Positions 125 to 15,722 of a stretch of 64,000 nt of DNA are shown piece by piece (the stretch's first letter is position 1; every line of letters begins with the position of its first letter). Both the position numbers and the translations under genes were made by a program. The DNA is from Candidatus Puniceispirillum sp. (GTDB lineage: Bacteria > Pseudomonadota > Alphaproteobacteria > Puniceispirillales > Puniceispirillaceae), in NCBI GenBank assembly GCA_028382965.1, contig JAOEUK010000001.1, forward strand, positions 186,001-250,000, read 5' to 3'. The notes beneath the pieces were generated by a model. It did no database searches. It had not been told where the DNA came from and worked only from the letters and a program-made list of their open reading frames with translations.

Positions 125-952
125 TTAAACTGGAGTCTCGCCACTTGCGGTACAGCGATGCAACTTACGTGGCATGTCCTCGGTATAATCTTTTACTGCA
201 TAGTGCATCGTACGACGATTATCCCAAACTAAAACGTCTCCAGCACGCCATTGATGACGATATATGTTCTCAGGTTGGGTCGCAATTTTATAAAGATGGT
301 TGAGAATCAAATTGCCTTCTTCAGCCCCTATGTTCTCTATGCGGGTGGTAAAGTGTGGATTGACAAAAATTGCTTGTTGATTTGTGCCCTCTGGTTTACG
401 CACGATGGGATGTGTGCGTGGTGGTTTGATCTCAGATGGGTCAATTGGTCTCGCATCAGAGGTGCTTGCAACGCTCCGCTTGAGAGTTGCCATACCACTA
501 TGTAAGGCTTTAAGTCCCTGTATAGTCTCACGCATATGATCAGAAAGATGGTCATATGCACGCACCATATTACACAACATTGTGTCACCACGGCCCTCGG
601 GTATGGTCAGTGAATGCAGAACAGTTGCTGATGGGGGTTGGTCTGAATGAGAAATATCAGAGTGCCAATAGTCGTTTGGAGCCCCAGGTCGTCCGGGCTG
701 GTTCTCAAGAATCAAAACCTGAGGGAACCCCTCCACGCTTGGACGGGTCTTGAGGGGGTGCGAACGGACAAAGCCAAAAAGTTCAGAGAAGGCTACTTGA
801 GCTGCAGGCGTCAAATTTTGGTCCCGGAACATAAGAACCAGGTGCTTGTTGTAGAGATCTAAAAGATCTGAGTTATTCTGATCGCTGATATTATTGAGGT
901 CGACGTCGCAAATCTCGATACCTAATGCGCCGTTAATACACTTAGTTTTCAT
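125..952 (-). CDS. TauD/TfdA-family Fe(II)/2-oxoglutarate dioxygenase
   Basis: A non-heme iron dioxygenase that should hydroxylate a small substrate, with decarboxylation of 2-oxoglutarate, in the cytoplasm. From the chosen start it is 275 residues, the usual TauD size. The iron-binding triad is visible: H97-S-D99 in YWHSDISHSD and H250 in RRTMHY, followed by the basic stretch PRKLHR that would hold 2-oxoglutarate. The ATG at 952 is preferred over an ATG 63 bases upstream: a GAGG sits about 7 bases before it, and the family begins near this point. Substrate is not predictable; taurine, 2,4-D-like and other carboxylates or sulfonates are all known in the family. It stands alone, with a broken isomerase gene upstream on the same strand. 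Confidence 0.85.
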   Translation of the reverse strand: MKTKCINGALGIEICDVDLNNISDQNNSDLLDLYNKHLVLMFRDQNLTPAAQVAFSELFGFVRSHPLKTRPSVEGFPQVLILENQPGRPGAPNDYWHSDISHSDQPPSATVLHSLTIPEGRGDTMLCNMVRAYDHLSDHMRETIQGLKALHSGMATLKRSVASTSDARPIDPSEIKPPRTHPIVRKPEGTNQQAIFVNPHFTTRIENIGAEEGNLILNHLYKIATQPENIYRHQWRAGDVLVWDNRRTMHYAVKDYTEDMPRKLHRCTASGETPV

Positions 953-1219
953 TTTCAACCTCGATTCTTTAAAATCACAAAGATTCCTTGATTTTAAAAT
1001 CAAAAATTTTATCACTGATACAGCACGATAAGCATTCGTTTTGCTGAGATTTAAGAGCTCGGAAAGCTGTCACACCATGTTTAAACATAAGAATAGAGTT
1101 CCACAAACGAGCCCATTTCGTCAACTGTCTATGTGCCAGCGAGCTTTCTGAGACAGCTTGGACAGAGTGAGGAATGAGGCTGTGATTATGAGGTGAATCA
1201 TGTCATTTGCCAATACTTC

Positions 1220-6726: not shown

Positions 6727-8676
6727 TCACTGAACTTTACCAGAGGATGAATTTGTCCAGCTTGAGGACCATGGATCATAGAGTGTGTTAATTATGCGTG
6801 AGTCGCCATTACGACGAGTCAAACCAATTTTATCAAAATACTCCAACACTTCTATTGCACGGTTTCGGTTGAGGCCCGTAAGGTGACGAAATTGAACTAA
6901 TGAGATTTGTCCCCCGAGATCACTTGCCGAGGCTAAAATAATTTTTGTAAAAGTTTGCATGGTTTTACTCAGAAAATGACGATCATTTGTGACCGACACT
7001 ATAATGTTTTTGATTTCCATTCGGCGCAAAACGGTTAATAAATATTTTCCATCAACTTCCAGGTTGTTAGCAAGTGTTCCCAATGCTGGTGGAGCTAACG
7101 GGCTCATTTCAAGTGATTTTATAATGTGCTCTGAAAGCTTTTGTTCTTCCCTTGAAAACATCTGCTTATTACTATGAATTTGAATTGACTGCCCGTCAAA
7201 ATCTATCTCTCCATCTCGCACAAGCTCATCAACCAACGCCGTAATTGTCCTAGAAGAAAAAATATAGCCTGTAGCTCTTTTTAACCCATCATGGGTAAGT
7301 CCCTGTTTAAGAGTGCTCAATTTTTCCACATCTTTTAGGGCTTTAACAACCAATTTTTTATGGTCTAACCAGTCAGTTATTTTAAAAGCTATTTCATCAT
7401 TTTTAGATGAAATTAGCTGTATAGAAATCGCTGAAAGTATTCGTGTAATATCGGCTTTATCCAGATTACGCGCTAGAGCAAAAGACGCAAAATCAATACC
7501 ATTAGGTGAATTCTCTAGCAGCGCACTTAAAGCGTCTAATGAGTTGGGACAATAAAGGGATTCTAAAAAATTCACCCGCTGTTGCTGCAGGCGGCTATTC
7601 TGAATAGCAAATGGATTAATAACGCGTCCACCAGCAAGGATGCGGCTAGCGCTGTTATCTTGAAGAATAAAACGGTCGCCATAAAGAGCGCTTAGCGGGC
7701 AATCTGAGACCAATCGAGCAAAGCTTGTTTCTCCTGGCTTAAGCCTCTTTCTATCAATAAGCCCTAACCGGGCTGTTGTTTGTGCAGTTCCTATATGAAG
7801 GTGTACTTTTGTCCAAACTTCTAATGGTTTCTTTTCAGTATCAAGAAGGTGGATACTAGTATCTAGACAAGTCGTTGGTGCATAAAGATTATTAGCAACA
7901 AGCCAGTGGCCAAGACCAATTTGACTTGATTTGATTCCCAAACCTGAAATGTTCAATCCAACACGTTGCCCTGCTATTCCTTTTTCAATATTTTTATTAT
8001 GCGCACGCACACTTCGCACACGGACACTTTGCCCATTCGGGATAAGCTTCAATCGACTCCCTGATCTGACAACACCTGAGGATATAGTCCCGGTTACTAC
8101 CGTACCAGTTCCGTGTACATTGAAAGCCCTATCAATTATCATTCGAAATAGACCATTTAATGCACGAGGGTGGGTATTTTGGCTAAGCTGTTCGATTTCT
8201 GCGCCAAGTTTATTTATTCCTTCTCCATGCGGTATGGATGTTGGAATAATAGGTGCGTGAGCTAATGTTGTGCCAAACAAGCATTTGGCAATCATCTTTT
8301 TTACATTACTTAGCCGCTCCGGTGTCACTAAATCAGTCTTTGTCAAGGCTACAAATCCCCGTTCAACACCCATTAAATCGAGAATAGCCAAATGCTGATA
8401 TGTTTGTGGCATTAAGCCATCATCTGCCGCTACAACCAATAGAGCAGCGTCGATTGCTGAGACGCCTGCTAACATGTTGCGAATAAAATGTTGATGCCCT
8501 GGCACATCAATGAAGCTAACTGTTTGCCCGTTTGATAACGGCCAATAAGCAAACCCCAACTCAATGCTAAGGCCCCGTAACTTTTCTTCGGCTAAACGGT
8601 CAGTGTTTATACCAGTAAGTATTTGAACCAGAGATGTTTTGCCGTGATCGACATGACCGGCGGTAGCTATAATCAC
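6727..8676 (-). CDS. selB: Selenocysteine-specific elongation factor SelB
   Basis: The GTPase that carries Sec-tRNA-Sec to the ribosome and binds the SECIS hairpin in selenoprotein mRNA. Motifs seen are G1 GHVDHGKT (7-14), G3 DVPGH (57-61) and the TKTD form of G4 (112-115) that SelB uses. EF-Tu-like beta-barrel domains follow, then a C-terminal half built of winged-helix repeats (for example RHLTGLNRNRAIEVLEYF) that bind the hairpin. The length, 649 residues, is normal. Its start overlaps the end of selA by 4 bases (ATGA), so the two are translationally coupled. It supports the recoded UGA at 11289. Confidence 0.97.
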   Translation of the reverse strand: MIIATAGHVDHGKTSLVQILTGINTDRLAEEKLRGLSIELGFAYWPLSNGQTVSFIDVPGHQHFIRNMLAGVSAIDAALLVVAADDGLMPQTYQHLAILDLMGVERGFVALTKTDLVTPERLSNVKKMIAKCLFGTTLAHAPIIPTSIPHGEGINKLGAEIEQLSQNTHPRALNGLFRMIIDRAFNVHGTGTVVTGTISSGVVRSGSRLKLIPNGQSVRVRSVRAHNKNIEKGIAGQRVGLNISGLGIKSSQIGLGHWLVANNLYAPTTCLDTSIHLLDTEKKPLEVWTKVHLHIGTAQTTARLGLIDRKRLKPGETSFARLVSDCPLSALYGDRFILQDNSASRILAGGRVINPFAIQNSRLQQQRVNFLESLYCPNSLDALSALLENSPNGIDFASFALARNLDKADITRILSAISIQLISSKNDEIAFKITDWLDHKKLVVKALKDVEKLSTLKQGLTHDGLKRATGYIFSSRTITALVDELVRDGEIDFDGQSIQIHSNKQMFSREEQKLSEHIIKSLEMSPLAPPALGTLANNLEVDGKYLLTVLRRMEIKNIIVSVTNDRHFLSKTMQTFTKIILASASDLGGQISLVQFRHLTGLNRNRAIEVLEYFDKIGLTRRNGDSRIINTLYDPWSSSWTNSSSGKVQ

Positions 8677-10136
8677 TTATCAGCACCAAGTTTATCACAA
8701 AGTTCTGGTAGCTGAATTATAAGTTGCTCAGGAGTTTCAAGGGAACGGAGGTCCAACAGCAAAGAACCGTTTCGAAGGTTGCCGATTACTGGCATCGTAA
8801 GACAGCGAAAGTGAGCTGCGAAGCCAGCTAATAATTTAGTTGCACGACCTTCTCCAAGACTTCCATTAATAATTGGTTTTATAGCTAGGCCAGCGCTACG
8901 AAGAGTATTAGTAGGCAAGGCACCACTGCCAATTTGGCTTTTACAATCGATTATTTTTACTGATGCAATACCTTTTAATGATTCAGCAACTAGCGGTTGA
9001 ATTTGTTCTGCAATTTTAAATATATCCTCATAAGATCTCGTAAGAAGGCGCAAGGCTGGCAGACGGGCAGCCAGGCGATCTGGATCGAAATAGAGTTTTA
9101 ATACAGCGCTTAGTGCTGCAATTGTAAGTTTATCAGATCTTACAGCTCTTTTTATCGGGTTAGCATTGATTTTTTCGATGAGGTCAGCACGCCCAGCAAT
9201 TATTCCAGCCTGTGGACCTCCCAATAATTTGTCACTACTAAATGTAACGATGTCGACACCACATAGAAGGGTGTCAAAAACCGTTGTTTCTTTTGGCAGG
9301 CCGTAAGGAGACAGATCAATTAACGCACCGCTTCCCAAATCTACAACCAGTGGCAGCCCATTATCATGAGCTGTTTTTGAAAGACAGGTTTCATTTACAC
9401 TGGCCGTAAAACCTTGCATTTCGAAGTTACTTGTATGCACCTTCATAATTAGTGCTGTGTTTTCATTGATTGCCGATTCATAGTCTCTCTGATGGGTGCG
9501 ATTTGTTGTCCCAACTTCACATAGTTTTACACCAGCTCGTTCCATGATGTCAGGAATACGGAAGGTGCCGCCAATCTCAACCAATTCACCACGGGATAAA
9601 ATGCCCTCGCGATTGTGTGCGAGTGTATTGAGAACAAGTAATACCGCAGCTGCATTGTTGTTGACCACGCAAGCCGCCTCTGCACCAGTAAGTTGACAAA
9701 TAAGATCGCTCACGTGGCAATCACGGTATCCACGGCAACCTTGGGATAGATTGTATTCAAGGTTGGAAGCGCCACTTGCCACTTGTCTGATAGCTTCAAT
9801 AGCTTCTGATGGTAATGGCGCTCGACCCAAATTTGTATGCAGAACTGTACCAGTCAAATTAAGAACGGGTTTCAAACTCGGTGCGGCAAGCTCACTTAGA
9901 CGTTTTGCAGCGCGCTCTGCAATTTTAAAACTTCTAAAATCAACAACAGTTTCTTCGCCACTTAGAACTCTATTTCGAAAATCAGCAATAATCTCGCGAA
10001 CGATGAAAGTTGTGGCCTTGCGGCCGTGTGCAACAACAACGTCTTGCATTTCTGTTGACCGCAGAATGCGGTCAACAGAGGGTATTACTGGCACAGACTT
10101 TTCTTGAGCTTTATCACATGCGCTTTCACTAGGCAT
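8673..10136 (-). CDS. selA: L-seryl-tRNA(Sec) selenium transferase SelA
   Basis: A PLP enzyme that converts Ser-tRNA-Sec to Sec-tRNA-Sec using selenophosphate. It shows the family N-terminus (IPSVDRIL), NLTGTVLHTNLGRAPL, VVDLGSG, and the PLP lysine K303 in TFSSDKLLGGPQAG. The length of 487 residues is typical. AGGTGA sits 6 bases before the ATG. The start codon is only 18 bases beyond the 3' end of the tRNA-Sec gene, so tRNA, selA and selB probably share a transcript. selD, which makes selenophosphate, is not in the window. Confidence 0.97.
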   Translation of the reverse strand: MPSESACDKAQEKSVPVIPSVDRILRSTEMQDVVVAHGRKATTFIVREIIADFRNRVLSGEETVVDFRSFKIAERAAKRLSELAAPSLKPVLNLTGTVLHTNLGRAPLPSEAIEAIRQVASGASNLEYNLSQGCRGYRDCHVSDLICQLTGAEAACVVNNNAAAVLLVLNTLAHNREGILSRGELVEIGGTFRIPDIMERAGVKLCEVGTTNRTHQRDYESAINENTALIMKVHTSNFEMQGFTASVNETCLSKTAHDNGLPLVVDLGSGALIDLSPYGLPKETTVFDTLLCGVDIVTFSSDKLLGGPQAGIIAGRADLIEKINANPIKRAVRSDKLTIAALSAVLKLYFDPDRLAARLPALRLLTRSYEDIFKIAEQIQPLVAESLKGIASVKIIDCKSQIGSGALPTNTLRSAGLAIKPIINGSLGEGRATKLLAGFAAHFRCLTMPVIGNLRNGSLLLDLRSLETPEQLIIQLPELCDKLGADK

Positions 10137-10154: not shown

Positions 10155-10249
10155 TGGCGAAAGGGTTAGGAGTCGAACCCAAAGGGAAGCTACTGCTTCC
10201 CTCCACCAGTTTTGAAGACTGGGCGCCCCACCGGAGACGTTACCCTTCC
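10155..10249 (-). tRNA. selC: tRNA-Sec (anticodon UCA)
   Basis: The 95-base transcript, CCA included, folds with an 8-bp acceptor stem (GGAAGGGT with ACCCTTTC). The anticodon arm is CCAGT-CTTCAAA-ACTGG, with UCA that reads UGA. It has a long variable arm (AGGGAAGC-AGTA-GCTTCCCT) and a 5-bp T arm around TTCGACT. The 8+5 geometry and long extra arm are diagnostic of bacterial tRNA-Sec. It lies immediately upstream of selA on the same strand. Confidence 0.97.
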
Positions 10250-10529
10250 TGTGACAGACAATAAACCTTAGCTTTTTTAAGCAAGAGCCATATGATTCAA
10301 TTTTTATGTCGATTGAAAAAGCCATCAGTATTAATGCCATGGTTTCAATTTATATTCAGAAAATTATCTTCGTTATGTTAGTTTAATTATGACGCTTTGT
10401 CTAAAAATAATATCAAAAATCTAATGAAAAGATTTGTGCTCTCACTGAGAGCTAGGTGCACTTCACGGAGACTGTTTTGATTAAAAAATTAAAGCACATT
10501 TTCAATGCATAAAAGCATGATTCGTTTGA
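10250..10529 (-). other. Spacer between selenoprotein gene and tRNA-Sec
   Basis: This holds no gene. A perfect 6-bp hairpin (GCTCTC-ACT-GAGAGC, 10438-10452) is followed on the minus strand by a partly T-rich stretch. It could be a weak terminator for the selenoprotein gene. Any promoter for the tRNA-selA-selB unit should also lie here, but none is convincing. Confidence 0.35.
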
Positions 10530-11753
10530 TTACTTTAGCCTGAATCTTTGATTTCGGGGTACAAAAGATGAGCGCGACATGTACTGTAAAAGTGGGTCCT
10601 CAGAAATTTCAAATACACTATTCAAATCCAGAAAAATTGCCCCAGCCGTGGTTTCACCCCAAAACCAATTTTGAATTTCAACACTCGTTGAGTAGCCAGG
10701 TTGTGCGGTTGCGGCCTCCATATACCAGGCTTTGATATCTTCAGATGCAATTTTTAAAAAGTTTCCCAAACTTATCTCTGGTTGTGGGTTTTCCACTTCT
10801 CCATCTAAAAACTTTATAAAAAATGTCGCAATTTGTTTCGCAGAGAGCCGGCTTGCTCCAACAGATGATCCTCCCCTTTTTCGCACAGAGAAGTCATACC
10901 ATGGCGATAGACTTTCTATTTCCGCTAAAAGTGCCACCTCGCGCTCTGATCTATCGCTTGGTGGGGGAGGAAAATTTACTGGGCAAGCCCATCCTTCGAC
11001 GTTTTCATTACTTCTATCTTCACCAATTGGAGCTTCCTCGTCAAAATCTTCAATCAATACGGGACCAGAATTAGACTCTAACAATAGCAAGCTTTTGCGC
11101 AAAACCTCTCTTTGAAAATCAGGTTGGTTAGGCGCGCCTAAAGGCCGACCTAGTTCAAATGGCACCCAAAGAAAACGAGGTGGACGCAAACCTTCTGTAT
11201 GCTCTCGGACAAGGCTAATCCCTGTGGTTGCGATGCCTTCGTCTTCGATATAATGTCCTAACGCGCCCACGGCGGTTGTGCAATTAGGTCATATAGGGAT
11301 AAGCATCACTGCATCAACATTATCTTTTTTCAAAAGGCCAGCCACCTCACGTGCTGTTTTTTCAAAGTCAGAGGGCTTGGACCCACCACCCATAAATCCA
11401 TAATGAAAATCTGCAACGGAGCCAATTTCGTTTGCATCGGCGAGCTCTTGCAATCGATCAATTGGGAAGGCAACGTTTAGGTCTTGTTGGAACCCAGTGC
11501 GATCAAAGTTTACAGATGTGTGGCTCATGACCATATCACTTGATTTTGTGTCACCTGGAATAATACGAAAGGCGGTATCGGCAAAGCCAAAAGTTTTCTC
11601 ACCAGCCACATGAATGCCCGCAGTTGTAATCATTGCGACACGACGTTCTTTTAAGGGTAAGCCAGTTACCCAAGGAGAACTGTCAAAAGGCTGACACTTT
11701 TTAGATAACAGGTGTTTAGCATCATCGGGCGGTAAATCAGATATTCGAACCAT
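10530..11753 (-). CDS. GrdB-like selenoprotein (glycine/sarcosine/betaine reductase selenoprotein B family), Sec at UGA codon 155
   Basis: The frame runs from ATG at 11753 through an in-frame TGA (11289-11291) to a final stop at 10530. This gives 407 residues with selenocysteine at position 155. Both sides belong to one protein: the upstream part (VRISDLPP, VMSHTSVNFDRTGFQQD, DFHYGFMG) and the downstream part (GALGHYIEDEGIATTGIS, PPRFLWVPFELGRPLGAPN) match the GrdB-like family end to end. The junction LIPI-U-PNC-TTAVGAL places Sec in a UxxC redox motif. A SECIS-like hairpin follows the UGA, and tRNA-Sec, selA and selB lie next door. Classical GrdB works with GrdA, C, D and E in anaerobes; none of these is here, so the reaction in this organism is unknown. 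An ordinary gene caller will split it at 11289 and restart at a GTG. Confidence 0.93.
11257..11288 (-). promoter_or_regulatory. SECIS-like hairpin directly after the recoded UGA
   Basis: Downstream of the UGA the mRNA can pair CCTAA with TTAGG as a 5-bp base and CGCC with GGCG as a 4-bp upper stem. The apical loop is GUG, 18 bases after the UGA, and there is an asymmetric internal loop. Bacterial SECIS elements sit within the reading frame at about this distance and carry G/U in the loop for SelB. The exact pairing is my hand fold. Confidence 0.65.
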
Positions 11754-11813
11754 GACTGTATTACCTTTATGTCTTGTTAAATGAAAACATTTGAAAATAA
11801 AATTGTATTTCAG

Positions 11814-12833
11814 CTATCCAAGATAGCTGATTTTACCCTTTTCTCGAAGCCACATTCTTACAAGACATCGCCGCAGTGATGGCTCGCCGGGATGGTCTAC
11901 ATAGGACGTTCGTCTGTGTCCAATTGAAGCATTGTTTATCCATTGAATCTGTCCTGATTTAAAATTTAAATCCACACGCATTTCAGGGTCTGTTAATATC
12001 TCATCAATAGCAGAAAGCATGTCTTCAGTTTCCTGATCTATTGATTGTTTGGCTATTTTATAACCCTGCCTGTTGAGGCGCTCACTGTAGCGCATAGTTA
12101 TATTACCATCAAAAGCAAAAGGTGGCCTCGATAAGATTTGTGGGTCATCAGCTGAATGTTCACGCTGCCTATCAAAAAGAATTGGTTTAAATCCTCTGGC
12201 ACAAAGATCTGGCCTGCTTTCAAGCAATTTGTTATAAACAGAATACCAATTAGTTAACTGGCTTTCCCCACCCTCCAGAGCAGGCCTGACACACATTAAG
12301 CCAACATAATCTGGAGGTGCAATATTTGAGCTGCAATCGGTATGAAAACTGAGATCAGCATTAGTGTGGGAGCCTCTTACACCAATTATATTTTTACCCT
12401 TACCCTCAGTTAGATCCATCACTTCATATAACATTTTTCCATCTTTGAAGTTTTGGGCGACTGGTCTACCAAGAAGGCTGCCTAACAACCAGTGCATAGT
12501 GGTCGCGACCTCCAAGGGCACAGAATCAATAGGTAATTTCTCCATTATGGCAAATCCAACGCCATTATCTAAAACTTCCTTAATTGTTTTCATAAAAACT
12601 TTACAGTTTTCTAGCTCATACATTTCTGGCCGAGTTATAAGGGCTGGCAAACAATTTTTCTGAAGTTCATCGCTTAACTTTTCCAATTCCATTAAACATT
12701 TATCAGGAAATTGAAAGAAATAATCTTCTTTGGATATAGTTGATTTGCGCCAGGCTTTTGGAAACTCAAAGGGGGCAGCTGGTATTTGCTCTGGTGGCAA
12801 TAAATTAGTTTCGATTTCTAAAACAGGTTCCAT
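11814..12833 (-). CDS. TauD/TfdA-like dioxygenase upstream of the selenoprotein gene
   Basis: A 339-residue Fe(II)/2-oxoglutarate-dependent oxygenase. Iron ligands are H164-T-D166 in FHTDCSSN and H306 in ASIGHRRTSY, and the conserved C-terminal arginines lie in PSLRRCLVRMWLR. The ATG at 12833 is chosen because GAGGAG precedes it; an ATG nine codons earlier lacks a site. It lies 60 bases upstream of the selenoprotein gene on the same strand, so the two may form an operon, and it is divergent from a LysR gene. It shares architecture and several motifs (QNxxGK/KGxxxG, HTD, RPDL) with the dioxygenase at 14652-15722, so they look like paralogues. Substrate unknown. Confidence 0.85.
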   Translation of the reverse strand: MEPVLEIETNLLPPEQIPAAPFEFPKAWRKSTISKEDYFFQFPDKCLMELEKLSDELQKNCLPALITRPEMYELENCKVFMKTIKEVLDNGVGFAIMEKLPIDSVPLEVATTMHWLLGSLLGRPVAQNFKDGKMLYEVMDLTEGKGKNIIGVRGSHTNADLSFHTDCSSNIAPPDYVGLMCVRPALEGGESQLTNWYSVYNKLLESRPDLCARGFKPILFDRQREHSADDPQILSRPPFAFDGNITMRYSERLNRQGYKIAKQSIDQETEDMLSAIDEILTDPEMRVDLNFKSGQIQWINNASIGHRRTSYVDHPGEPSLRRCLVRMWLREKGKISYLG

Positions 12834-12951
12834 TAAAATACTCCTCGCAAGCATCAACAATAATCTAGTCTCTCAATTTATGTCACATTTAATCAATGAA
12901 ATATAATGCTAAATAATATACTATATATGTTTAAACTGCATAGGAAAAGAA

Positions 12952-13839
12952 ATGAAACAACTTCCTTTTCGTTGGATAGAAACATTTCGTGTAATTGCCA
13001 GCACAGGCAGCATGACGGATGCTGCCAAGATCCTTGGACTAGATCAGTCAGCAATGAGCCGCCATATTTCATCACTCGAAGGGTATATAGGTATTGAGCT
13101 GTTTGATCGAAATAAGCGTCGCCTAAGGTTAACGGCAGCAGGTAAACTAATGATACCAGAAGCCGATTCGGCAGCTGCAGCTATAAATAGGTTTGTTCGC
13201 AAAGCTGCTGAGATAAACCAGCTATCTGAGGGACACTTACAGATAATAACCTCTGCGACACTTGCGCGCGGACTTATGCCAAACGCCTTGTATGCATTTA
13301 AGTCACAAGCAAGCGGCGTAACGGTAAATATTGAAGTATTAAGCCGCGTTGAACTTGAAAAGAGAATAGAAGGCCAACAATTTGATTTATGCGCCGTTGC
13401 TTTGCCTTTTACCTATCCAGCTGAACATCAAGTTTATATTGGAAAATTTTCTGGAGTTTGTATTATTAATAAAAGTCACAAACTTGCGAAAAAGATAAAA
13501 ATAAAATTGACAGACCTTCAAGGTGAAACATTTGTTGGTTTACCAAGAGGCACAATAGGCAGAATGAGAATAGACCAATTATTCAGCGATGTTGGTATAG
13601 ACTACAAACCACAATTTGAAACCACAGCTGTTGGTTTGAACGAGTTTGTTGAAAAGGGTATCGGTATAGCCATTGCCGATCCTTTTACAGTTAGATCAGA
13701 CAGCACTGGTAATGTGCTTGTTAGGCAGCTAGAGCCAACAATTCAATATGAATTTTCTTTCTTATTTCCAACTAACCGCCCAAGAACAAGCCTAGCTTCA
13801 TTGTTTGTGACTGAGGCTACAAAAAAGCAAGCGAGCTAA
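12952..13839 (+). CDS. LysR-family transcriptional regulator
   Basis: A 295-residue regulator with the N-terminal winged helix-turn-helix (RWIETFRVIASTGSMTDAAK, SAMSRHISSLEGYIGIELFDR) and a periplasmic-binding-like effector domain from about residue 90. AGGAAAAG precedes the ATG. It is transcribed divergently from the TauD-like/selenoprotein genes across 118 AT-rich bases. In the LysR family this layout usually means that it regulates the divergent genes, probably with an effector related to their substrate. That link is inference. Confidence 0.93.
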   Translation: MKQLPFRWIETFRVIASTGSMTDAAKILGLDQSAMSRHISSLEGYIGIELFDRNKRRLRLTAAGKLMIPEADSAAAAINRFVRKAAEINQLSEGHLQIITSATLARGLMPNALYAFKSQASGVTVNIEVLSRVELEKRIEGQQFDLCAVALPFTYPAEHQVYIGKFSGVCIINKSHKLAKKIKIKLTDLQGETFVGLPRGTIGRMRIDQLFSDVGIDYKPQFETTAVGLNEFVEKGIGIAIADPFTVRSDSTGNVLVRQLEPTIQYEFSFLFPTNRPRTSLASLFVTEATKKQAS

Positions 13840-14651: not shown

Positions 14652-15722
14652 TTATGGTGTGAGAGGTGCTGTTAACTTTTGTCCAACAACCCGAACCCCC
14701 CCTCGTTCAGGACTGCCAATTTCAACTGAACCGTATCTTTCGGCAAAGATAGGTGGCAATGGTCGTCCATTTGGTGAGGCAACCCAAAGCCTTAACAAAT
14801 GTCGTTTTCGCTCCTCTTCCTGCCAATCTTTGAAGTCTGTGCGGTCATGTAGTATTTGATGATTATGTAAAATTTGAATGTCACCAGGTTTAAATTCCAT
14901 GTATAAATTTATAGAGGAGTTGTTTGCCAGTTGATCTAGCATATTTAGAGCTTGTGTTTGTATATCTGTCAGCGCAGGCACCTTTGAGAACCGACGCGCG
15001 GACTCAATATATCGTCGAGTATAAAGCGTGGATAACCTGCCTTTAAACCAATTAAATATTGGCATGCGGTAGTAACCAAGCTGTCCTGGTGGAATCTCGC
15101 CGCGACGATCAGTTTCAATTGGTTCAAATAAAGCGTCTGCTAGATCAGGCCGTTTTTTGAACATTTCATTAAAAATAGTTACCGAAGAAACGATGCTGGA
15201 TAGGCCGCCTGACTTTGCTGTCTTCAAGCACAAAAGAAAAACTAGATCGCAACTATCGGTGTGATACGTTTGCCTAACATTGGTTTGATAAACTCTTACC
15301 TTTGGATCTCTATGATCAAGCCCAACATCTTTGATGTGCCCAATAATATGACCCTTAGCGTTTTGTGGAAGTGCGTGGCCGAAATGAACGCCAATTCCAG
15401 TGTAGATGATTGCACTCTCTTCAATAGAGTATTTATCTACTTCTAGACCTCTTAGTAATGTAAAACCTCGCCCTTCCAGAAGCTCTTTCTGAATTATTTC
15501 AAATTTTTTGCGTAAAGTTGGAAGAATAAAATCTGCCTTTTTAATTTCAGTTATTTTTATTTTTCTTTCTTTGATGCTCTGCATCGCAGCACTGAGCTCT
15601 AATTTTTCGTGTCTAGAAAATTCTTTGACCCAATTGGTTGAAGAGCGCATGTCGCTACCATACCATGCTGAATCACCCTCAATCAGTTTTTTTGGCATAA
15701 CCAGATTTTCAGTTATTGGCAT
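14652..15722 (-). CDS. TauD/TfdA-like dioxygenase
   Basis: A 356-residue Fe(II)/2-oxoglutarate oxygenase with ligands H154-T-D156 (QTYHTDSCDL) and H292 (HNHQILHDRTDF), and the C-terminal RKRHLLRLWV carrying basic residues for 2-oxoglutarate. AAGGAGA is 7 bases before the ATG. It is a likely paralogue of the dioxygenase at 11814-12833: both have an N-terminal extension of about 90 residues before the catalytic core. It stands alone between gene-poor stretches. Substrate unknown. Confidence 0.87.
   Translation of the reverse strand: MPITENLVMPKKLIEGDSAWYGSDMRSSTNWVKEFSRHEKLELSAAMQSIKERKIKITEIKKADFILPTLRKKFEIIQKELLEGRGFTLLRGLEVDKYSIEESAIIYTGIGVHFGHALPQNAKGHIIGHIKDVGLDHRDPKVRVYQTNVRQTYHTDSCDLVFLLCLKTAKSGGLSSIVSSVTIFNEMFKKRPDLADALFEPIETDRRGEIPPGQLGYYRMPIFNWFKGRLSTLYTRRYIESARRFSKVPALTDIQTQALNMLDQLANNSSINLYMEFKPGDIQILHNHQILHDRTDFKDWQEEERKRHLLRLWVASPNGRPLPPIFAERYGSVEIGSPERGGVRVVGQKLTAPLTP

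Follow-up and report, generated by a model that had tools for sequence, protein, structure and literature searches.

In the stretch of Candidatus Puniceispirillum sp. DNA analysed here (64,000 nucleotides, referred to as the window), two open reading frames (ORFs) on the minus strand share one reading frame and are separated by a TGA codon. Two questions arise from this locus: whether the TGA ends a gene or is read as selenocysteine (Sec), and what the joined protein would do. The window genome is 2.38 Mb in 39 contigs and appears to be that of a SAR116 relative.

One reading frame across an internal UGA

In the ORF list of the window, the first ORF (11753-11289, minus strand) has an ATG start, encodes 154 amino acids and ends at the TGA at 11291-11289. 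The second is in the same frame, begins with a GTG at 11270, six codons past the TGA, and reaches its stop at 10530. An earlier note on this DNA had described this arrangement of two minus-strand ORFs split by TGA 11289-11291 and six codons, and its coordinates are confirmed. Translation with TGA as U yields the single 407-residue product that the note had proposed, with U155 in a U-P-N-C motif; from the homologue alignment, the TGA corresponds to Sec155, and the second Cys of the motif, Cys158, lies at 11280-11282. From the ORF list, profile matches, alignment and dN/dS, the gene for this predicted long PrdB-like selenoprotein occupies 10530-11753 on the minus strand (407 aa and a stop codon, with a single in-frame TGA). 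The description "unannotatable by default" is too strong. A standard ORF list does give two ORFs, but annotated relatives exist: in the PLSDB table a clostridial prdB gene is entered across its UGA without a break, and short relatives from Alphaproteobacteria carry the annotation 'glycine/sarcosine/betaine reductase selenoprotein B family protein'.

Conservation of the UGA and selection beyond it

Comparison with homologues indicates that the internal UGA is almost certainly read as Sec, giving one 407-residue protein. Long forms of the gene were found in 41 places, the window included, plus a fragment at a contig end in one genome (G014). Sequences were fetched for 38 of these besides the window, and G338:C14 and G423:C235 were left out. 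The alignment (A1) also left out one protein cut by a contig end (L074) and two with a broken frame (L083, L089); L099 and L100 are not of the long form. L083 and L089 are long homologues from contigged genomes in which the frame is broken by an extra TAG or a frameshift.

Across the 36 aligned full-length proteins, the window's included, the Sec column holds TGA in 33 and Cys in 3, in line with the earlier expectation that homologues carry U or C at position 155. The other proteins are 37-90% identical to the window protein and share the motif P-(V/I)-U-P-x-C-T. Columns 155 and 158 are the sole invariant Sec/Cys columns in the alignment. The three Cys proteins come from genomes without SelB over the cut-off. 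The homologues seen run through the TGA instead of ending there, apart from the contig-end fragment in G014.

The frame past the TGA is under purifying selection relative to the 90%-identical copy of SAR116 AG-325-I21, with dN/dS of 0.05 before the TGA, 0.10 after it and 0.13 over codons 232-407. The other two frames past the TGA lose 19 and 25 of 250 codons to stops and have no synonymous excess. The downstream 252 residues, whose lack of similarity the earlier note had named as grounds for giving up the selenoprotein reading, are conserved in the alignment as well as selected. A real stop, whether between two genes, in a decayed gene or from a sequencing error, would agree with the two ORFs of the standard list. 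The UGA in the same column of 33 of 36 proteins and the selection past it argue against such a stop, as do the SECIS covariation and the co-occurrence with SelB described below, and its probability is negligible. Stop codon, pseudogene and sequencing error were accordingly rejected on the UGA column, the SECIS counts and dN/dS.

A SECIS element downstream of the UGA

With numbering from the U of the UGA, nucleotides 15-31 can fold into a stem of 6 bp with a loop whose first bases are C-G-U-G. In the window this putative upper hairpin of the SECIS is 17 nt long, starts 11 nt past the TGA and spans 11261-11277 on the minus strand, with the apical loop CGTG at 11268-11271. The Sec members of the long form and of a short sister subfamily share the register and use different compensating bases (e.g. 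G-C vs A-U at 19/27). Pairing was compared with a null of synonymous recoding with each gene's own codon usage. Paired cells numbered 172 of 198 in the long Sec set (0.87, vs 0.54 expected) and 196 of 198 in the short Sec set (0.99, vs 0.69 expected), and 0 of 300 recodings reached the observed pairing. The loop CGTG occurs in 28 of 33 different long Sec sequences (4.8 expected) and in all 33 short ones (7.1 expected). Cys homologues stay at the null, both for paired cells (11/18 and 83/144) and for the loop (0/3 and 1/24). The long Sec set kept L074, L083, L089 and L099 (37 loci, 33 different sequences); in the short set, L100 was included and L117, without a motif match, was left out (35 loci, 33 different sequences).

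The hairpin just past the UGA, with its conserved loop, is evident comparatively, and the window copy alone is weak: 4 of 6 positions pair, and single-sequence folding is not significant (z = 0.14). In the passages compared, the bacterial element is described as 17 nt long, at positions 15-31 and 11 nt from the UGA, with G23-U24 in the loop (PMC8659212). The register seen here is the same as that bacterial or E. coli register, but the G-U in the loop lies one base closer to the UGA.

Sec machinery, co-occurrence and linkage

All four Sec genes are present in the window genome. The tRNA-Sec gene (selC) lies at 10156-10250 (ARAGORN; Rfam RF01852, 64.6 bits), selA at 8673-10136 (PF03841) and selB at 6727-8676 (PF25461 and PF09107; TIGR00475 over the cut-off), each on the minus strand, and selD is found elsewhere in the genome (TIGR00476, 234 bits vs a cut-off of 125). 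The earlier note had the genes and the strand right and had counted a genome without selD against itself, which did not materialize; its distance of 400-4000 bases does not hold at the lower end, as the tRNA-Sec gene begins about 280 bases from the selenoprotein gene. Together, the conserved UGA, the Cys alternatives, the SECIS element and the machinery support its selenoprotein reading.

SelB scores over the cut-off in 54 of 385 alphaproteobacterial genomes. It does so in 34 of the 38 genomes with a TGA-holding homologue, vs 0 of the 12 whose homologues are without TGA. Of the 38, 37 were seen to have the TGA at the position of Sec (the G182 sequence was not fetched); of the 12, 10 were seen to have Cys, the other two being G131, with a TAG in its frame, and G392, neither of which was fetched. 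The four TGA genomes without SelB over the cut-off are G395, with a partial SelB; G071, 77% complete; G322, whose copy is on a 5,967-base contig; and G371, which is unexplained. Within the window's family (61 genomes), SelB is over the cut-off in exactly the six genomes with the full-length UGA gene; the genome with the contig-end fragment (G014) is without it.

Linkage to the Sec genes is much closer for the long form than for its short sister. In the fetched stretches, sel genes accompany 20 of 36 Sec-type long loci (tRNA-Sec 18, selB 15, selA 11, selD 10) and none of the three Cys-type long loci. A tRNA-Sec gene lies within 3 kb of 16 of 36 Sec-type long loci vs 0 of 35 short Sec loci, for which the stretches reach mostly 3 kb on each side. 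Seven loci (L067, L071-L073, L083, L087, L089) have, near the gene, proteins of 740-813 aa in which a pyridine-nucleotide-oxidoreductase-like part is fused to SelD. One of these fusions was read by eye and the others were assigned by clustering; the L068 and L070 members are shorter (354 and 324 aa).

A block at 10478-11784 (minus strand), covering the gene, is 86% identical over 1,307 bases to the AG-325-I21 DNA (L003) in a pairwise comparison. On the upstream side the two sequences cease to resemble each other some 30 bases ahead of the start codon; on the downstream side, the comparison ends with the L003 contig. The SelB proteins of the two genomes share only 36% identity, and selB is upstream of the gene in AG-325-I21 and downstream of it in the window. 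Since there is no shared upstream DNA, SelB is this divergent and selB stands on opposite sides, the comparison suggests that gene and Sec machinery may have been exchanged separately.

Among the few families tested, the long gene is the only selenoprotein found in the window genome, where formate dehydrogenase alpha (FdhA) and SelD are without UGA, UGSC is missing and the paralogue has Cys. FdhA has no internal stop in any of the six family genomes with the long gene. A UGSC selenoprotein occurs in one of the six, on the same contig as the gene. Besides the gene and the highly divergent selB, the L003 contig of AG-325-I21 holds a UGSC-family gene containing one TGA, a protein that belongs to no Pfam family and a CoA-transferase-like gene; by its TGA, the UGSC-family gene is a predicted second selenoprotein in one sel cluster.

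Family relationships and the C-terminal region

The earlier note called the product GrdB-like. Its match across the junction stands, and the nearest named family is PrdB (TIGR04483, 6.5e-35), not GrdB (TIGR01917, 2.4e-8). TIGR04483 matches residues 32-226 (11076-11660, minus strand), across U155, at 120.7 bits, below its cut-off of 300. The GrdB model TIGR01917 reaches 33.3 against a cut-off of 602.2, and the GrdH, GrdF and GrdB models all score below PrdB. The protein exceeds the gathering score of PF07355 (GRDB), with 33.5 vs 22, and both PF07355 and TIGR04483 match 36 of 36 long members at E <= 0.1. It is like GrdB, GrdF and GrdH in passing this Pfam threshold and in that the models of all three span the Sec column. 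It differs from them in covering only the last third of the PF07355 model (224-344 of 347) and in falling far below all equivalog or exception cut-offs.

Residues 33-231 of the window protein align with clostridial PrdB (e.g. Terrisporobacter, Peptoclostridium) at about 32-38% identity, with the U-x-x-C motif in common. Two clostridial PrdB proteins have UGA in the same alignment column, and their ends fall close to residue 240 of the window protein. PrdB of clostridia has about 240 aa and comes with PrdA, whereas the window protein has 407 aa, 176 more residues and no PrdA. In profile searches and alignment, residues 232-407 (about 176 residues; 10533-11060, minus strand) have no counterpart in clostridial PrdB or in the short subfamily of about 300 residues. 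No Pfam or NCBIfam family covers this C-terminal region, where searches gave only weak stray matches in 1-4 members (best E 0.0023, to a UGSC model). A PDB sequence search gave no match at E <= 10, and an AF2 prediction from two sequences had a pLDDT of 32.

The long form comes out as a single clade (SH-aLRT 100) in a tree built from 101 proteins, with the three Cys proteins together in one group nested inside it. The tree left out L083, L089, L099 and the fragment L026. The tree program warned of the long branches that join PrdB and the long group, and the root between them is unsure. Because the Cys trio forms one nested group, Sec would most simply be ancestral in the long clade and replaced once by Cys. 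Across a phylum sample, 16 of 398 genomes have a match, full-length only in the window's own, and no relatives were found on viral contigs.

The short alphaproteobacterial PrdB-like subfamily (about 300 aa) is the sister group, with the same SECIS register and both Sec and Cys forms. It differs in having no C-terminal region, no tRNA-Sec nearby (0/35) and acyl-CoA genes as neighbours. One of its branches carries U-P-L-D-H (L103, L104, L109-L112, L117); in six of these loci Sec is without a second Cys, and L117 has Cys in place of Sec.

Partner proteins and gene neighbourhood

D-proline reductase combines PrdB with a second subunit, and the earlier note had spoken of organisms without the other glycine reductase subunits. 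For PrdA/GrdG-type subunits such an absence is borne out in the genomes searched. The known alpha-type (PrdA/GrdG-type) partner is not found in any of the 13 carrier genomes, the window's own included, that were searched with the PrdA model. As controls, the model gave 976 bits on a Terrisporobacter plasmid (W01), over its cut-off of 700, and 556 bits on a Peptoclostridium megaplasmid (W02), under it, where it also picked up two grdG genes. The GrdA model (PF04723) has no match in the window's own genome and matched no control genome either. That the protein is a genuine D-proline reductase subunit whose partner went unrecognised is very improbable: TIGR04483 is the best family match, but 120.7 is far below 300, the PrdA/GrdG-type gene is missing from the 13 carriers while the controls are positive, and clostridial PrdB lacks the 176-residue extension. 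On the missed cut-offs and the missing PrdA/GrdG-type partner, glycine reductase or D-proline reductase proper was rejected.

Besides the sel genes, no gene is a steady neighbour of the long form. Directly upstream in the window, across a gap of 60 bases, is a TauD/TfdA-family dioxygenase gene (11814-12860, minus strand; Pfam). It is not a conserved neighbour, as no homologue of it occurs among the genes around the other 40 fetched loci, and a role as functional partner is not supported. Three dioxygenases of this family lie within a 16-kb part of the window (125-1015, 11814-12860, 14652-15722), together with a LysR regulator (12952-13839).

Acyl-CoA genes raise the possibility that the substrate is a CoA thioester, with CoA activation replacing the pyruvoyl Schiff base of PrdA/GrdE. 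The genes counted were CoA-transferase III, enoyl-CoA hydratase, acyl-CoA dehydrogenase and acyl-CoA synthetase; Pfam confirmed representatives of the first three, and the synthetase label comes from sequence only. Around the short sister (62 loci, L013-L031 and L101-L140 among them) they fill 23 of the 112 nearest positions vs 1 of 106 further out (p = 1e-6). With eight close relatives removed the counts are roughly 15/96 vs 1/96 (denominators estimated; p = 3e-4). These sister-subfamily neighbours are the reason why the CoA-thioester reading is kept as a rival. A CoA-transferase also stands immediately upstream at three long loci (matching PF02515 in one case), but all three are from one family (f68) and the window has none. 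Around the long form there is no enrichment, with 5 of 154 near vs 6 of 179 far (41 loci, including L099 and L100). For the long form a CoA-thioester substrate is therefore unlikely, though less so than a D-proline reductase subunit.

Proposed mechanism

PrdB and GrdB attack a substrate carbon. By analogy with these relatives, the long form, a selenoprotein of the PrdB/GrdB superfamily with Sec155 placed by SelB and SECIS, may attack carbon without a PrdA/GrdE-type partner; it belongs to a clade that is most simply Sec-ancestral and often sel-linked. This reading is favoured here with moderate confidence. Comparative evidence indicates that SelB, guided by the SECIS hairpin 11 nt past the UGA, inserts Sec at 155, which forms with Cys158 a U-x-x-C centre. 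Most likely, if PrdB, GrdB and FarB are a guide, the selenolate would attack a small organic substrate at an activated carbon and expel the leaving group. The enzyme would then be freed through a Sec-Cys bond that is reduced by a cellular thiol system. Unlike PrdB, GrdB and FarB, it seems to act without a partner of the PrdA/GrdE type; the conserved C-terminal region would probably supply the partner's role, or the substrate may arrive already activated. The clade is alphaproteobacterial and, most simply, Sec-ancestral, often beside selC, selA, selB or selD, with one nested group that has Cys.

A different chemistry is that of a Sec-dependent thiol/selenol oxidoreductase, acting on disulfides, sulfoxides, peroxides or sulfur species, in which U-x-x-C would serve as in thioredoxin-like selenoproteins and not as a carbon-attacking centre. 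That columns 155 and 158 are the sole invariant Sec/Cys columns is consistent with such an enzyme, and so are the neighbours of the Cys paralogues, a hint of sulfur chemistry in the sister family. The carbon chemistry of PrdB and GrdB speaks against it, and the six short Sec relatives with U-P-L-D-H, which lack a second Cys, imply that the redox pair is not universal. An oxidoreductase of this kind is a serious but lesser possibility. The Cys paralogues concerned, the window genome's own among them (L002 and, in the same genus, L019, L021-L023 and L027-L031) adjoin metallo-beta-lactamase-fold genes and/or Sulf_transp and DUF6691 genes; a link of these paralogues to sulfur metabolism is possible.

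A more specific proposal can be offered tentatively. The protein could be a partner-free, single-chain Sec reductase of Alphaproteobacteria, the SAR116 lineage among them, in which a PrdB-type Sec-Cys centre is joined to a new C-terminal domain replacing the pyruvoyl subunit, with some genomes keeping or passing on Sec-decoding genes for it.

Relation to known PrdB selenoproteins

PrdB-labelled UxxC selenoproteins of marine metagenomes have been in print since 2005. In the parts of the two surveys compared, 'proline reductase PrdB' selenoproteins ranked third among the families by abundance in the Sargasso Sea data of 2005, with 42 genes (PMC1088965), and comprised 235 Sec and 110 Cys forms, assigned to pfam07355 with UxxC, in the GOS data of 2008 (PMC2398784). 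The window gene shares the Pfam family, the motif and the habitat with these and would very probably be counted among them. Length, C-terminal region, partner absence and sel linkage are not given in the passages compared, and the long, partner-less variant would be the new part. FarB, a GrdB-like selenoprotein of fluoroacetate reduction with a predicted Sec, has been proposed to attack the carbon-halogen bond (PMC10838667). In the portion of that paper compared, FarB comes with FarE, which is GrdE-like, in an anaerobe, whereas no such partner was found for the window protein.

The portions consulted of five papers on PrdB and GrdB (PMC13188914, PMC9402790, PMC9312934, PMC1794560, PMC5029168) name no other function for the long form. 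Literature searches on SAR116 with proline reductase and on 'reductase selenoprotein b family' found nothing, one on SAR116 with selenocysteine found nothing on this subject by title, and one on 'grdb-like' with selenoprotein found only the FarB paper.

According to the passages compared, selenoproteins labelled PrdB belong to the most frequent ones of ocean metagenomes. D-proline reduction, the function that the label names, needs PrdA. Since PrdA is missing in the 13 carriers tested, the functional label PrdB is probably wrong for the long form. The long gene is also well suited to studying what maintains Sec decoding in bacteria and what moves it.
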